Of a stretch of DNA of 64,000 bases, positions 26,207 to 33,054 are shown one piece after another. The position numbers and the translations under genes are program-made. The stretch is from NCBI GenBank assembly GCA_038040445.1, contig JBBPIG010000007.1:200310-264309 (forward strand). Direction: 5' to 3'. Every line of letters starts with the position of its first letter. Positions within the stretch are counted from its first letter, which is position 1. Below the pieces are notes generated by a model that was not told the DNA's origin, searched no databases, and saw only the letters and a list, made by a program, of their open reading frames with translations. The stretch is from Acidobacteriota bacterium. Lineage in GTDB: Bacteria > Acidobacteriota > Blastocatellia > UBA7656.

Positions 26207-26809
26207 GTGACAGCACAGATTCTAGAACAAGAAAGGCCGTTCACCGTGGCTCTGGATTTCCATTCTGTCAGATTGACGGAAGAGCAGTTTTATCAACTCT
26301 GTCAGGACAACGACGACCTGCGTCTTGAACTCACTGCAGAGGGAGAGCTGATCATTATGCCTCCAACTGGCGGAACCACAGGTTCGCGCAATGCAGACAT
26401 CACTTTTCAGATTGTGCTTTGGGCAAAGAAGGACGGCACGGGGCTGAGTTTCGACTCTTCGACCATGTTTATTTTACCCAACGGCGCCAAGCGTTCTCCA
26501 GATGCCTCCTGGGTCAGCCGAGAAAGATGGGACGCACTCTCTGAAGAACAGCGCGAGAGGTTTGTTCCGCTCTGTCCTGACTTCGTTTTGGAGTTGCGCT
26601 CTGCGACGGATCGGTTGTCGTTTCTGCAGGACAAGACGCAGGAATATATCGCGAACGGCGCGCAGTTGGGACTGTTGATCGATCCCCAATCGAAACAAGC
26701 CTATGTCTACCGTCCGAATCAGCCCGTCGAATGCCTAGACAATCCGCAGAGCATCTCAGGTGAGCCGGCGCTGCCAGGTTTTGCTTTGGACCTGAAGGAT
26801 ATTTGGTGA
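26207..26809 (+). CDS. Uma2 family (DUF820) protein within the elongasome operon
   Basis: The GTG at 26207 has a GGAGG site four bases upstream, better than the GTG at 26168 that abuts the rodA stop. About 200 residues: FTVALDFHSVRLTEEQFYQL, GELIIMPPTGG, SSTMFILPNGAKRSPDASWV, then PDFVLELRSATDRL, with YIANGAQLGLLIDP and the Lys in the expected nuclease-fold places. Function unknown for the family. It is only weakly related to the Uma2 gene at 1.6 kb. It overlaps the next start by four bases, so it is transcribed and translated with rodA and the radical SAM gene. Confidence 0.85.
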   Translation: MTAQILEQERPFTVALDFHSVRLTEEQFYQLCQDNDDLRLELTAEGELIIMPPTGGTTGSRNADITFQIVLWAKKDGTGLSFDSSTMFILPNGAKRSPDASWVSRERWDALSEEQRERFVPLCPDFVLELRSATDRLSFLQDKTQEYIANGAQLGLLIDPQSKQAYVYRPNQPVECLDNPQSISGEPALPGFALDLKDIW

Positions 26810-29703
26810 TCAACACACAAAATGACTATCGAGCAGCATTAGACTCGATTCTTCCGCTTGTCGAGAAGCCCGCGCGCTACGTGGGCGGTGAATGGAACGC
26901 CATCCACAAATCGCCCGGCGAAGTTCATACCCGCATCGCGCTTTGCTTCCCGGACACTTACGAGATCGGGATGAGCCACCTCGGCCTCAAGATACTCTAC
27001 AGCCTTTTGAACAAGCGCGACGGATGGGCGGCCGAGCGCGTGTACGCGGCGTGGCCCGACATGGAGGCAAAGCTCCGTGAGCGCGGAATACCGCTGCTCT
27101 CGCTTGAAAGCTATACGCCGCTTCGCGATTTCGACGTTGTCGGCTTCTCGCTCCAGTACGAGATGACCTACACCAACGTGCTGACGATGCTTGATCTGGG
27201 CGGCATCCCGATTCATACGCAAGCGCGCTCGCTTGTTGACCCGCTGGTTATCGCCGGAGGGCCGACCGTGTATTCCTGCGAACCGGTAGCCGACTTCATC
27301 GACGTGTTCGTCATCGGCGACGGCGAAGAGACGTTCCCCGAATTGGTTTCGCGCTACATGGAGTTGAGAGACTCCGATATGGATCTTACCCGCGAGCAGT
27401 TGCTGAAAGAGATCGCTCGAATTGAGGGTATGTACGTGCCGTCGCTGTATCCGACCTCGGTGAGCCCGCATCACGGTCTGCTCATCGTCAACCAACCGGA
27501 CGACGCGGATATCCCGTTTCCGATTCGCCGGCGGGTGGTCCAGGACATCAATCAGTATCCGTTTCCTTCGGACTCGCCCGTGCCGGCGATCGAAGCGGTG
27601 CATGACCGCGTGGCAATCGAGATCGCGCGAGGTTGCGTCGACGGCTGCCGGTTTTGTCAGGCGGGCACGATCTACCGCCCGGTCCGCGAGCGCGACCCGA
27701 AGCAGATCGTCGAGACGATCATTGACGGCATCGAAAAAGGCGGCTACGACGAGACGAGCCTGACCTCGCTTTCGACGGCTGACTACACTTGCCTTGAGCC
27801 GCTGGTGAAGATGCTTGGGAGCGAGCTCGAGCGCCGCAACGTCAGCTTCTCAGTTTCATCGCTGCGCGCGTCGGGCGTCACCGAGTCGCTCGCTCGCGAG
27901 ATCGCCCGTGTCCGCAAGACCGGCTTCACGATCGCGCCCGAAGCGGGCACTCAGCGGATGCGCGATGTGATCAACAAGAACATCACCGAGCAGGACGTAA
28001 TGAACTCTTGCTCCGTTGCGTTTGAGCAAGGCTGGTCCGCGATGAAGATGTATTTCATGATCGGGCTGCCGACCGAAACAGATGAAGACGTGAGCGGCAT
28101 CGCCGAGCTTGGCAGAAAAGTGCGCGAGCTTGGCAAGAACAAGTACAACAAGAACGTGAAGGCTACGTGTTCGGCTTCGTACTTTGTGCCAAAGCCGCAC
28201 ACGCCCTTCCAGTGGTGCAAGCAAGAGGACATGGACTCGATCAAGCGCAAACAGCGAATGCTGAAGGAGCTTGGCCGCCGCTATCGCATCGACGTGAAAG
28301 TGCATCACGCGGAGACGTCGCTGCTCGAAGGAATAATCTCGCGCGGCGATCGCGCGCTGTGCAAGGTGATCGAGCGAGCGTGGAGAATGGGTTGCCGGTT
28401 TGACGGCTGGACCGAGCATTTCGATTTCGGGAAGTGGATGGAGGCGTTCAGAATCGAGGGCGTGGAGATCGAGCCTTATCTTCAGGAGTTCCCGGTCCGG
28501 GAGTTCAACAAGCCCGGCGCGCCGCTCGTTCAGCTTCCGTGGGACCACATCGACACGCTTGTGAAGCGCGAGTTCAACGCCCGCGAGTACATCAAGGGAA
28601 TCAAGGCGAAGATATCACCGCCGTGCGAGCTGCCGGTGAAGATCATCGACGGCCGGCCCACGGCGATCGCTCCCTCGCACGAGGAGTTCGAGCGAGTAGC
28701 TTCCCAACCGTTGCTCTGCTATGCATGCGGGCTGGAGTGCGATCTGACCAAGTCTCGAGAGCACCTTGGCAAGGCCTATGCGCTGCATGTGGAAGTTCGA
28801 AGTTATCAGGAACGGATAGCAGCGGTGAAGGAAGTTATCGAGCAGCCGCTTGTTGAGCTTCAGGGGTTGGCCCCGACGCCCAACCCCACACCCCCAACCC
28901 CCCTCTTCCGCTATCGCGCGACGTTCGAAAAAGGTGAAGAAGTAAAGTACCTTTCCCATCTCGACCTGACGCGAGCGTTGCCTCGCTCGTTCAGACGTGC
29001 GAAGATCAAGCTTGGATACAGTCAGGGGTACCACCCGATGCCGTTGATTCAGTACGGGCCGGCGCTTGGGGTGGGGACAGTGGGTTATAACGAATTGATC
29101 GACTTCGATTCGCACGATGAACTCGAGGAACGGCAGTTCCTCGACAGGATCAATGCAGTCTTACCACCCGGTTTAAGTTTCAAGTCACTGCTGCGGCTGC
29201 GGGCCGGAGCGCAGTCGCTGATAAAAGAGGTCAACCGCGCGGAGTACTCGGTGAATCTCGACGCACCGGAGATCGAGGCGGCATTTCAAAGAATATGCGG
29301 TGAACGAGCTGAGTTCGCCGCGATCGACGCGCCCGATATTCATCGGAATCTGGCAGACGGTTTCATGGCGCGCGGCTCGTGCGTGATTGAGCGCGTGCGC
29401 AAGGACAAGCGTCAGCGAGTTGATGTGCGGCGCTACACAAAAGCTCTGAGTCTGGTCGAGGACCTGAACAGTCTTAGTATTGTGACTGAAGTTTCGCCGA
29501 ACGGCGGCGTGAAGCCGATTGAGGTCGTGGCCGCTGTTTACGGCTTGACCGAGATTGAGACGACTTCTCTCAGTTCCCGCGTGCGACGGCTGCGGTTGTA
29601 TTGGGAGGATGAAACAAGCGACCCCGCAAGCTGGACAAATGGAGTCACCGCTCTGATGAGCGAGCAAGGAGACAAGTTGCGAGTGACCACGAGTCACTCA
29701 TAG
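26806..29703 (+). CDS. B12-binding-type radical SAM protein fused to DUF2344 (TIGR03960-TIGR03936)
   Basis: Start taken at GTG 26806, six bases after GAAGGA. Residues ~20-200 hold a B12-binding-like Rossmann domain (RIALCFPDTYEIGMSH). Residues ~240-560 are a radical SAM barrel with the cluster motif ARGCVDGCRFCQAG, and a Cys-rich end follows near residue 640. After a Pro/Thr/Asn linker (residues ~686-701) comes the DUF2344 domain (FRYRATFEKGEEVKYLSHLD, GYSQGYHPMPLIQYGPAL). The fused form is common, and genes for it stand next to RNase E/G genes in many bacteria, as here. Reaction unknown. An RNA target is suggested by the context only. Confidence 0.9.
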   Translation: MINTQNDYRAALDSILPLVEKPARYVGGEWNAIHKSPGEVHTRIALCFPDTYEIGMSHLGLKILYSLLNKRDGWAAERVYAAWPDMEAKLRERGIPLLSLESYTPLRDFDVVGFSLQYEMTYTNVLTMLDLGGIPIHTQARSLVDPLVIAGGPTVYSCEPVADFIDVFVIGDGEETFPELVSRYMELRDSDMDLTREQLLKEIARIEGMYVPSLYPTSVSPHHGLLIVNQPDDADIPFPIRRRVVQDINQYPFPSDSPVPAIEAVHDRVAIEIARGCVDGCRFCQAGTIYRPVRERDPKQIVETIIDGIEKGGYDETSLTSLSTADYTCLEPLVKMLGSELERRNVSFSVSSLRASGVTESLAREIARVRKTGFTIAPEAGTQRMRDVINKNITEQDVMNSCSVAFEQGWSAMKMYFMIGLPTETDEDVSGIAELGRKVRELGKNKYNKNVKATCSASYFVPKPHTPFQWCKQEDMDSIKRKQRMLKELGRRYRIDVKVHHAETSLLEGIISRGDRALCKVIERAWRMGCRFDGWTEHFDFGKWMEAFRIEGVEIEPYLQEFPVREFNKPGAPLVQLPWDHIDTLVKREFNAREYIKGIKAKISPPCELPVKIIDGRPTAIAPSHEEFERVASQPLLCYACGLECDLTKSREHLGKAYALHVEVRSYQERIAAVKEVIEQPLVELQGLAPTPNPTPPTPLFRYRATFEKGEEVKYLSHLDLTRALPRSFRRAKIKLGYSQGYHPMPLIQYGPALGVGTVGYNELIDFDSHDELEERQFLDRINAVLPPGLSFKSLLRLRAGAQSLIKEVNRAEYSVNLDAPEIEAAFQRICGERAEFAAIDAPDIHRNLADGFMARGSCVIERVRKDKRQRVDVRRYTKALSLVEDLNSLSIVTEVSPNGGVKPIEVVAAVYGLTEIETTSLSSRVRRLRLYWEDETSDPASWTNGVTALMSEQGDKLRVTTSHS
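28864..28906. repeat. GGGGTTGG/CCAACCCC repeat hairpin inside a coding frame
   Basis: GGGGTTGG is followed by CCCAACC, CCACACC and CCCAACC in 7-bp steps. The stretch lies in frame and encodes the linker APTPNPTPPTP between the radical SAM and DUF2344 domains. A similar GGGGTTGG/ACCCCC string follows mreB near 21520-21545. Confidence 0.6.
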
Positions 29704-30063: not shown

Positions 30064-33054
30064 ATGGCAAAAGAGTTAATCATTAGTGCAAACGTGCACG
30101 AGAAGAAGGTCGCCATGCTTGAAGATGGCATAGTGACCGAGTTCTACGTCGAACGCAGGGACGAGAATCAAGGCGTTGTCGGCAACCTGTACAAGGGCCG
30201 GGTGATGAAGGTGCTGCCTGGAATGCAGTCGGCCTTCGTCGACATCGGGCTGGAGCGCGACGCGTTCTTATACGTCTCGGATTTCACCGAGTTCATGGAG
30301 GAGGAGGAAGAGATCGACTTCCGTGAAGTGGGTGATGATCAGCGCGTTCCTCCTCGAATCGACGACCGACCGCGGCGAAGCGACCCGCGCAGACCCGAAC
30401 CGGTTTCGGCTGGCGCCAAACCTGCGCCCGCGCATGAACGTGCGCGCGAAGAGGAACCACCTGCCGAGAGGCCCGTGCGCATCGAAGACGCGGTCGAGCA
30501 GTTGGCCGAGATCGCAGATGAGAGCCTCATTCCGCCGCCGCCTCCTGAAGAGGATCTTCCCGAGAATGACCAGGGCGTCGCGCAGCCGGCTGTCGGGGCA
30601 TTCTCAATCGAACGCGTGACCGACGATGAGACTTATCGCTCCGAGGAAACCGCCGCCTCTAAGAGACCAGCGCAGGCCGCCGAACTTGAAGCTGCGGAAC
30701 CGGATGCGAAGCCCCGGCGCGGCCGAGCAAGGAAGCCGGTTGAGCCCCGAAAGAAACTAACGAAGGCTGAGGAGAAGCCGGCCAAGGCAACGACACGAAA
30801 GGCTGCGCCCAAACCTGGCCCGAGGCGATCCCGGCGGCGCGACGAAAACGAACAAGCAGCGGAGCGCGAGAGCGCGACCCAGTTTCAACGCGTTACCGAT
30901 GAGGACATGCGGGAGGACGCGGGAGAGCTTCTGAAGGATGCGATCGTTCAAGAGAAGATCATCGAGCAGGTCCACAACGCCGAGTACCAAACTGCCAGTT
31001 TCCAACCCGAGCCCGAGCCTGAGTGGCGAGTAGGCAGCCTGCGCTCTTTGGCGGAAAGCGACTCAGGTTTCCAGCGCGTCGTGGATGAGAATGCCGAGGC
31101 TGCCGCGCGGCAAAATGTGGCGCGTTCCGAGGCCGACATCGAGCAGGAAGGCTCAATCACCGGACAGCACGATGAGACTAAAGTTTCTCCCTTCCGGCAT
31201 ATTTCCGATGTTGTGCGCGGGCTCTACGGCCGGATTCAATCCGGTGCTTCGGGCGAAGCAACCGAATCGACTGAGGCGGCCGGTTCACCCCAGTTTCTGG
31301 AGAACGGCACGACTGAAGGCTCATCCTCGACTGCGAGCGAGGACCCGAGCGAAAACAGGGAGAGTCACCGAGAGTCGTCATCGGAAGAAGACCGCGAAGC
31401 CGAAGTGCGCGACCGCGGGCCTCGCGGTGAGTTTGCCGTGCGCCGCGGCGGAAGAGGACGTCGCGGCCGCGGGGGTCGCCGCGAAGGTCCGGCTACAGCA
31501 GCAGGGGCCGCTCCCGGCGAGGAGGAATCAGCGGCTACCGCCGTCGCGCCGGAAGAGGGCGAGGCCAAAGTCGAGGAAGCTCCAAAGCAGGAAGAGACTG
31601 CTCGTCCGGCGGAGTCCCGGCCAGTTGAAGAGCGGCCAGTTGAAGCCAAGCCGGTCGAGGCGAGGCCGGTTGAAACTCGACCGAGTGAAGCACGGGTTCC
31701 GAGTCCTGGTCCCCAACGCAGACCCGATCCGCGCAGACCAGACCCGCGTAGGCCAGATCCGCGCAGACCAGATCCACGCAGACCAGATCAGCGCAGACCG
31801 GAAGTCGGTCCTTCCCGGCGACCCGATCGAGGCGGCGCTCCAACGATCAGCGACCTCCTGCACGAAGGACAGGAGATTCTCGTTCAGATCGCCAAGGAGC
31901 CGATCGCCAAAAAAGGCGCTCGCATCACGTCTCACATAGCGCTGCCCGGCAGATTTATTGTGTACATGCCGACGGTCAACCACATCGGCGTCTCGCGCAA
32001 GATACCCAACGACGCTGAACGCGTAAGGTTGAAGCGAATCGTGACCGCTCTGCGTGACCGCGAAGGCGCCACCGGCGGCTTCATAGCGCGGACCGCGTGC
32101 GCGGGCGTTTCCGAGCAAGAGCTCGGCGATGATATGCGCTACTTGCTGCGCACCTGGGCCGACGTTCGAAAGAAGACCGAACGCGTCAAGGCGCCGGCAC
32201 TGGTGCATCGAGACCTCGATCTGGTGCAGCGAATCTTGCGCGATCAGATGTCCGATGAGTTCACCGCCATTCGAATCGACAACGAAGTCGAGTACGCGCG
32301 AATAGTCGAGTTTGTGAATCGCGTTCAGCCTAAGCTGGTAAAGCGGGTGAAGCTGTACACCGCCGACCAGCCGATTCTCGAAAAGTATGGTGTGCAAGCT
32401 GAAATCGACAAAGCTGTTCGCCCGCGCGTGTGGTTGAAATCAGGCGGCTACATCGTGATCAATCAAACGGAAGCGCTGGTCGCGATCGACGTGAATACAG
32501 GCAAATTTGTCGGCAAGTCGGACAAGCTCGAGGACACCATCACCAGAACCAACCTCGAAGCTGCAAAAGAAATCGTGCGTCAGGTAAGGCTGCGCGATCT
32601 TGGCGGGATCATCGTGCTCGACCTCATCGATATGGAGGAGCGCAAGAACCGCCAAAAGGTAATGATGGCGTTGCAGCAGGAGTTGTCGCACGACCGCTCG
32701 CCGTCCAAGATTCTTTCGATCAACGACTTCGGGCTGGTCGCTATTACTCGCAAACGAGTCAAGCAGTCCCTCGAACGTACGCTCTGTACGCCGTGTCCGT
32801 ATTGTCAGGGAGCGGGCATGGTGAAGTCAGCGCAGACGATGTGCTTCGAGATACTGGAGCAAGCCAAAGCGATGAGTAAGCAGTTGGCCGGTTCGAGCGA
32901 CGTGATGCTGCGAGTCTCGCCGCACGTAGCCGAATCGCTGCGCACGACTGAGCGTGAAGTTATGGAGGAGGTCGAAGCTCATTTCGGAACACCGGTGACG
33001 ATCGAGCCCGACCCGAATCTCCATCAGGAGCAGTTCGACTTCGCGGTCATGTGA
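30064..33054 (+). CDS. rng: Ribonuclease E/G with a ~510-residue insertion in the S1 domain
   Basis: A 996-residue protein. Residues 1-80 are the first half of the RNase E/G S1 domain (ISANVHEKKVAMLEDG, NLYKGRVMKVLPGMQSAFVDIG, ERDAFLYVSDF). Residues ~80-592 are disordered, rich in Glu, Arg, Pro, Ala, with 5-residue repeats (RPVEx and RRPDP, encoded by 15-bp repeats at 31618-31800). S1 resumes at residue 593 (PTISDLLHEGQEILVQI), then the catalytic core with the metal-binding aspartates in EALVAIDVNTG and IVLDLIDM, and the zinc-link cysteines in CTPCPYCQG. Without the insertion it has the size of RNase G. It cuts single-stranded RNA. The insertion could act as an RNA or partner scaffold. Confidence 0.93.
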   Translation: MAKELIISANVHEKKVAMLEDGIVTEFYVERRDENQGVVGNLYKGRVMKVLPGMQSAFVDIGLERDAFLYVSDFTEFMEEEEEIDFREVGDDQRVPPRIDDRPRRSDPRRPEPVSAGAKPAPAHERAREEEPPAERPVRIEDAVEQLAEIADESLIPPPPPEEDLPENDQGVAQPAVGAFSIERVTDDETYRSEETAASKRPAQAAELEAAEPDAKPRRGRARKPVEPRKKLTKAEEKPAKATTRKAAPKPGPRRSRRRDENEQAAERESATQFQRVTDEDMREDAGELLKDAIVQEKIIEQVHNAEYQTASFQPEPEPEWRVGSLRSLAESDSGFQRVVDENAEAAARQNVARSEADIEQEGSITGQHDETKVSPFRHISDVVRGLYGRIQSGASGEATESTEAAGSPQFLENGTTEGSSSTASEDPSENRESHRESSSEEDREAEVRDRGPRGEFAVRRGGRGRRGRGGRREGPATAAGAAPGEEESAATAVAPEEGEAKVEEAPKQEETARPAESRPVEERPVEAKPVEARPVETRPSEARVPSPGPQRRPDPRRPDPRRPDPRRPDPRRPDQRRPEVGPSRRPDRGGAPTISDLLHEGQEILVQIAKEPIAKKGARITSHIALPGRFIVYMPTVNHIGVSRKIPNDAERVRLKRIVTALRDREGATGGFIARTACAGVSEQELGDDMRYLLRTWADVRKKTERVKAPALVHRDLDLVQRILRDQMSDEFTAIRIDNEVEYARIVEFVNRVQPKLVKRVKLYTADQPILEKYGVQAEIDKAVRPRVWLKSGGYIVINQTEALVAIDVNTGKFVGKSDKLEDTITRTNLEAAKEIVRQVRLRDLGGIIVLDLIDMEERKNRQKVMMALQQELSHDRSPSKILSINDFGLVAITRKRVKQSLERTLCTPCPYCQGAGMVKSAQTMCFEILEQAKAMSKQLAGSSDVMLRVSPHVAESLRTTEREVMEEVEAHFGTPVTIEPDPNLHQEQFDFAVM

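Follow-up and report, generated by a model that had tools for sequence, protein, structure and literature searches.

The scaffold of RNase E is usually described as an arm at the C-terminus. Insertions within the S1 domain of the enzyme have also been described, with lengths of 50-150 aa in alpha-proteobacteria and plants (PMC4245959) and of about 50 aa in Wolbachia (PMC5436854). In Caulobacter, RhlB binds to an S1/5'-sensor fragment in which the insert is contained, and in the crystal structure the insert protrudes into the RNA-binding site, where its acidic side chains were proposed to mimic RNA (PMC4245959). In plant RNase E, deletion of the S1 insert lowers activity (cited in PMC4245959). 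In alpha-proteobacteria, the GWW motif is a binder of PNPase (PMC12489471), and alternating charge patches drive the formation of RNase E condensates (PMC12691583). For the Fibrobacteres/Acidobacteria group, a survey in 2011 listed a protein of 511 aa with no degradosome predicted (PMC3071783). No paper covering both RNase E and Acidobacteriota was found in our literature search, and a mention in the review by Ait-Bara and Carpousis (2015) is possible.

The gene examined here is located at positions 30064-33054 (+) of the window, which is the whole 64,000-nucleotide stretch of DNA analysed, and it consists of one open frame of 996 aa with an ATG start and no internal stops. It is the sole RNase E/G gene of the 6.75-Mb genome. 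The protein matched PF10150 with 330.8 bits (cut-off 25.5), which assigns it to the Rne/Rng core family, and TIGR00757 (Rne/Rng) with 479 bits (cut-off 326). Among the Pfam/NCBIfam matches, RNase_E_G at residues 627-899 (PF10150; 31942-32760, +) covers the rest of S1, the 5' sensor and the RNase H-like and DNase I-like core with Asp809 and Asp853, and RNase_E_G_Thio at residues 910-992 (PF20833; 32791-33039, +) is the thioredoxin-like small domain, which includes the zinc-link CPYC (Cys911 and Cys914; 32794-32805, +). The two catalytic Asp residues and the two Cys residues of the CPxC zinc-link, all typical of Rne/Rng, were invariant across an alignment of 105 homologues; we take Asp809 and Asp853 to be the counterparts of E. 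coli D303 and D346. The family matches and this invariance agree with the initial annotation, made from the sequence alone, in which the rest of the core was described as complete with catalytic Asp and zinc-link Cys, and the gene product is a genuine RNase E with an intact core. No C-terminal arm is present, since the chain stops at residue 996, four residues past the small-domain match, and the protein lacks the large disordered extension after the catalytic core by which the E. coli type is defined. The adjoining upstream gene (window 26803-29703, +) codes for a 966-aa fusion of TIGR03960 (B12-binding radical SAM) and TIGR03936 (radical SAM-associated), and an Rfam scan of the RNase E gene and the upstream gap gave no matches.

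The S1 domain of this protein is split by a very long insert. When the protein was compared with E. coli RNase E by phmmer, two pieces were aligned (residues 4-74 and 590-972 with E. coli 10-80 and 92-471), and the gap between them corresponds to about a dozen residues in E. coli and to about 500 extra residues in the window protein. After excision of the insert in silico, S1 and the 5' sensor (spliced residues 4-202) gave one unbroken alignment with an E value of about 8e-28. The first part of S1 (residues ~36-76; 30169-30291, +), with AlphaFold2 pLDDT mostly >85, contains strands 42-50, 56-60 and 67-70 before the insert, and the second part (residues 594-626; 31843-31941, +), delimited by phmmer, the spliced alignment and AlphaFold2, contains strands 604-611 and 620-622. 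Strands 1-3 thus end at residue ~76 and S1 is resumed at ~594, leaving about 517 residues between them (residues ~77-593; 30292-31842, +) in the loop between strands 3 and 4. The split had first been placed at residues 80-592, which was right within a few residues. The contiguous spliced alignment and the strands predicted with high confidence on both sides indicate a complete S1; since Foldseek did not join the two S1 parts across the insert, the integrity of the domain rests on that alignment and on pLDDT.

The insert is charged and predicted to be disordered. Its FoldIndex value was -0.22, compared with +0.14 for the core, and disorder-promoting residues make up 75% of it. In the AlphaFold2 model based on the 105-homologue alignment, pLDDT was mostly >90 in the core on both sides and about 30-55 in the insert, except for one helix at residues ~286-311. 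In both models this helix reached pLDDT 70-87, and apart from it no piece of the insert, and none of its other motifs, was folded with confidence. With a 40-row alignment the core was poorly modelled (mean pLDDT 54), and with a deeper alignment that included short-loop homologues the mean pLDDT was 68 and the pTM 0.62. The presence of a large disordered stretch inside S1, as originally proposed, is therefore supported by FoldIndex and by the low pLDDT. The insert alone gave no family match in Pfam or PHROG.

Several short parts can be distinguished within the insert, all on the forward strand. It starts with the acidic segment FMEEEEEIDFREV (30292-30333), and a negative net charge over the first 25 residues was seen in 121/121 inserts. 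This is followed by RIEDAVEQLAEIADE, a moderately conserved and, according to AlphaFold2, weakly helical island (residues 139-152; 30478-30519), by FSIERVTDDE, which reads as a degenerate FERxxDE copy (residues 180-189; 30601-30630), and by the basic island KPRRGRARKPVE (residues 215-226; 30706-30741). Further conserved parts are the FERxxDE copy FQRVTDE (residues 274-280; 30883-30903), the helical motif GELLKDAIVQEKIIEQVHNAEY (residues ~286-311; 30919-30996), the VGSL motif (residues 323-326; 31030-31041), the FERxxDE copy FQRVVDE (residues 336-342; 31069-31089) and the Arg-rich, RGG-like island DREAEVRDRGPRGEFAVRRGGRGRRGRGGRR (residues 442-471; 31387-31476). The segment SPFRHISDVVRGLYGRIQ (residues 375-392; 31186-31239) is amphipathic and restricted to the family of the window, and it has the highest hydrophobic moment of the insert. 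The KDA motif was also considered as a membrane-targeting amphipathic helix and was rejected with a hydrophobic moment of just 0.1-0.4.

A search for conserved short motifs in the relatives revealed an array with a fixed order across the class, namely FERxxDE, the helix GELLKDAxxQEKI, VGSL, FERxxDE and AEFAxRRGGRGRRR. The patterns used were [FYL]xR[VI]x[DE][DE], GE[LM][LF]KDAxxQE[KR]I, VGS[LFV] and AExR...EFAxRRGGRGRRR. In 32 class inserts, FERxxDE was found 54 times (0.6 in shuffles), the KDA-helix in 22 inserts (0.00), VGSL 22 times (0.4) and the EFA-Arg motif 22 times (0.2); the patterns were chosen after inspection of the inserts and the shuffle counts keep relatedness in, which is partly answered by the out-of-family test given below. 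With these strict patterns, several families of the class retain only part of the array. Elsewhere in the genome the motif array was absent, so that only RNase E carries it, and the FERxxDE DNA pattern gave only three scattered matches across the genome. The initial annotation had emphasized the repeats RRPDP and RPVEx. The 15-bp tandem array coding for RRPDP is real (5.5 copies; 31717-31799), but within the insert the emphasis was misplaced, since RRPDP and RPVEx (residues ~518-545; 31615-31698) belong to its most poorly conserved stretches, with copy numbers that vary even within the genus, and their reading as functional repeats was rejected for this poor conservation.

In the out-of-family test, the 64 positions of the insert with the highest conservation outside the family of the window were 86% identical between the window protein and L070 of the same genus, compared with 53% for the 318 least conserved positions; the corresponding values against L068 were 76% and 22%. 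Positions conserved outside the family are also conserved inside it. Against L070, dN/dS was 0.024 for the core and 0.194 for the whole insert and, within the insert, 0.057 for the islands and 0.268 for the remainder, values that are approximate because dS was about 1.2-1.4, which is above 1; the islands were picked partly with these same rows. In addition, the last 70 residues were net-basic in 84/121 inserts (12 expected from shuffles).

The insert is found throughout the class. The class comprises genomes G001-G057 and is Blastocatellia as judged by named relatives, including Pyrinomonadaceae and Chloracidobacterium. All 51 relatives readable across S1, from nine families, share the insertion point, with inserts of 249-550 aa, and an uninterrupted S1, which would have spoken against the initial annotation, was found in none of them; outside these 51, G005 and G038 were unreadable at S1, G052 and G056 had no match, and G036 and G051 were not included. 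In one same-family genome (L100, G005:C22), the RNase E match is in two frames near the contig end, probably owing to a sequencing frameshift. On a core-only tree of 105 RNase E/G rows from the phylum, all 56 rows with an insert of at least 100 aa fell in one clade (SH-aLRT 98), although the tree was obtained by a quick search with long branches elsewhere, and deep relations outside this clade are uncertain. Inserts of at least 100 aa arose once, within Acidobacteriota, as a single change of state on the core tree. The 121 distinct Acidobacteriota inserts range from 105 to 787 aa, and the S1 loop has 8-90 aa in other lineages of the phylum; the relatives of the long-insert clade have loops of 31-90 aa and then 23-24 aa. 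Within the clade, lengths are 117-311 aa in about a dozen families, 250-550 aa in the class of the window and 465-787 aa in f16, which by named relatives is Terriglobia (e.g. Edaphobacter lichenicola L202, insert 784 aa). Each genome of the clade has one RNase E/G gene. The inserts of Terriglobia contain a different repeated motif, LPGES[IL]S[KR][YFH], in 30 inserts and often twice. Strongly conserved repeats of [IV]LPGES[IL]SK[YF] were seen in the Terriglobia inserts of 429-787 aa (L101-L110, L186-L212 and L237), where the second LPGES copy reads WDGG..LPGESLSRHR; no known function was found for the motif. L104, L120, L152, L153, L156 and L222 seemed to have N-terminal arms of 250-890 aa, but these were rejected, as they are without a usable start codon and look out of frame, and L111, with an N-terminal arm of about 100 aa, may be the sole remaining candidate. 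An Acidimicrobiia-binned contig (L215, VFZH01000029.1) carries an RNase E/G with 57% identity to those of Acidobacteriota and is probably mis-binned.

Taking these results together, we consider it probable that the window gene codes for a genuine RNase E with a scaffold arm placed in the loop that joins S1 strands 3 and 4 rather than behind the core. The idea of a scaffold in S1 came from the initial annotation, and it is supported by the disorder, the in-order motifs, the Arg-rich RGG-like island and the single gene copy, though not in its reliance on RRPDP and RPVEx. In the mechanism that we propose, the FERxxDE copies (two or more), the GELLKDA helix and VGSL would be docking peptides for degradosome proteins, the RRGGRGRRR island would hold RNA, and the arm in S1 would replace the usual C-terminal arm. 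Because the arm leaves from S1, partners and RNA would be held beside the 5' sensor and the RNA entry path, and there would be four arms per tetramer, provided that the enzyme forms tetramers like its E. coli counterpart. The binding of RhlB by the insert-bearing Caulobacter fragment may serve as a precedent for a scaffold inserted in S1. PNPase and RNase J are present in the genome and RNase Y was not detected there, which makes RNase E a plausible centre of RNA decay. In the PNPase of the genome (L121:1327-3786, -), the S1 domain is followed by a disordered C-terminal tail rich in Arg, Asp and Pro, and its N-terminal extension of about 70 residues is implausible, the true start probably being MELKQSV.

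A different reading is that the insert acts as a regulatory gate, in which it folds back on the enzyme and the acidic start and the acidic-hydrophobic FERxxDE copies mimic RNA at the S1/5'-sensor cleft, restraining cleavage until they are displaced. The constant acidity of the first 25 residues fits this reading, as do the entry of the Caulobacter insert into the RNA site with its proposed acidic mimicry (PMC4245959) and the reduced activity of plant RNase E after insert deletion (cited in PMC4245959). However, the short loops of other lineages also start acidic, so that a length of 500 residues is not accounted for by acidity, binding in trans is a better fit for the helix motif and the Arg-rich island, and a confident structure was predicted for none of the motifs other than the helix. 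We therefore regard a gate as rather unlikely. Alternatively, the insert may work mainly as a condensate driver through charge blocks and multivalency, like a BR-body component, with little specific docking. Charge blockiness was above shuffles in 15/15 inserts tested (z 2.5 to 10 for 20-residue blocks), and charge patches have this role in alpha-proteobacterial RNase E (PMC12691583). Charge patterning alone, however, does not need the conserved order and letters of the motifs, and by a 5-residue charge-block measure the window insert itself was not above chance (z 0.7), which makes a mainly condensate-driving arm distinctly unlikely. Self-gating and condensate roles may nevertheless coexist with a scaffold.

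It could also be that a tolerant surface loop grew by neutral expansion and does nothing more than leave S1 undisturbed, which would suit the wide range of lengths (105-787 aa), the fast evolution of most of the insert (dN/dS 0.27 outside the islands) and the ongoing length change seen in the tandem RRPDP array, but the motif islands are strongly constrained class-wide and the arm was lost in 0/51 class relatives, so this explanation is very improbable. An artefact (assembly error, frameshift, intein or mobile insertion) is refuted by independent genomes, since the insert lies at the same site and in an open frame in every relative whose gene could be read, the isolate Edaphobacter lichenicola L202 among them, has no family match and is under purifying selection (dN/dS 0.19), and a frameshift or misassembly need not be invoked.

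With the scaffold arm as the preferred reading, we tentatively raise the possibility of an Acidobacteriota degradosome in which the whole client-docking arm extends from the catalytic S1 and places the partners at the RNA entry/5'-sensor side. This position would have arisen independently of the arms found at the C-terminus in Pseudomonadota and in other Acidobacteriota, and the docking motifs would be lineage-specific, with FERxxDE/KDA-helix in Blastocatellia and LPGESxSKY in Terriglobia. Since the two motif sets differ, no universal client is implied. The data point to a scaffold-sized part of RNase E in a dominant soil phylum, located elsewhere than at the C-terminus, and they suggest a degradosome built where so large an arm is undescribed. 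Two questions thereby become testable: does it matter where a scaffold lies with respect to the path of the RNA, and is the S1 loop a place where degradosomes generally evolve? Partners could be sought with the conserved peptides of the insert as ready-made baits.

Compared with known RNase E architectures, the window protein has several distinct features. First, the arm of E. coli and other Pseudomonadota is, like the insert, large and disordered, with short linear motifs and Arg-rich segments, and a like function can be inferred; however, that arm follows the core, whereas the present one lies inside S1 and has no recognisable E. coli-type motifs. Second, C-terminal-arm paralogues occur in the same phylum (L053, L057 and L046), also with a disordered Arg-rich arm, and two-copy families often bear such an arm of 124-302 aa on one copy. 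In contrast to the window protein, these have the arm at the C-terminus, an S1 loop of 10-18 aa and at least two RNase E/G genes per genome. WW, as in the GWW-type PNPase motif, was found in 0/129 S1 inserts and in 5/14 C-terminal arms of other Acidobacteriota; the Arg-rich arms of L053, L057, L046, L054 and L125 carry [HRL]WW[RV], reminiscent of the alpha-proteobacterial GWW. Third, plant chloroplast RNase E also has an insertion within S1, but a much smaller one. Plants had been named as the only precedent, which has to be corrected because alpha-proteobacteria have smaller inserts as well (50-150 aa; PMC4245959). In Caulobacter crescentus (PDB 4OXP), sequence alignment places the break in the same S1 loop, with the second S1 part starting at 4OXP residue ~167, and the insert is likewise charged, predicted to be disordered and partly helical. 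Its helices lie at the RNA cleft in the crystal, whereas the insert of the window is known here from sequence and prediction. Alpha-proteobacteria combine an insert of 50-150 aa with a C-terminal arm, whereas the window protein has about 517 aa, well outside that size range, with a motif array and no C-terminal arm. Because smaller S1 inserts were already described, the insert reported here is a known kind of insertion, and what is new is a much enlarged variant with a motif array.
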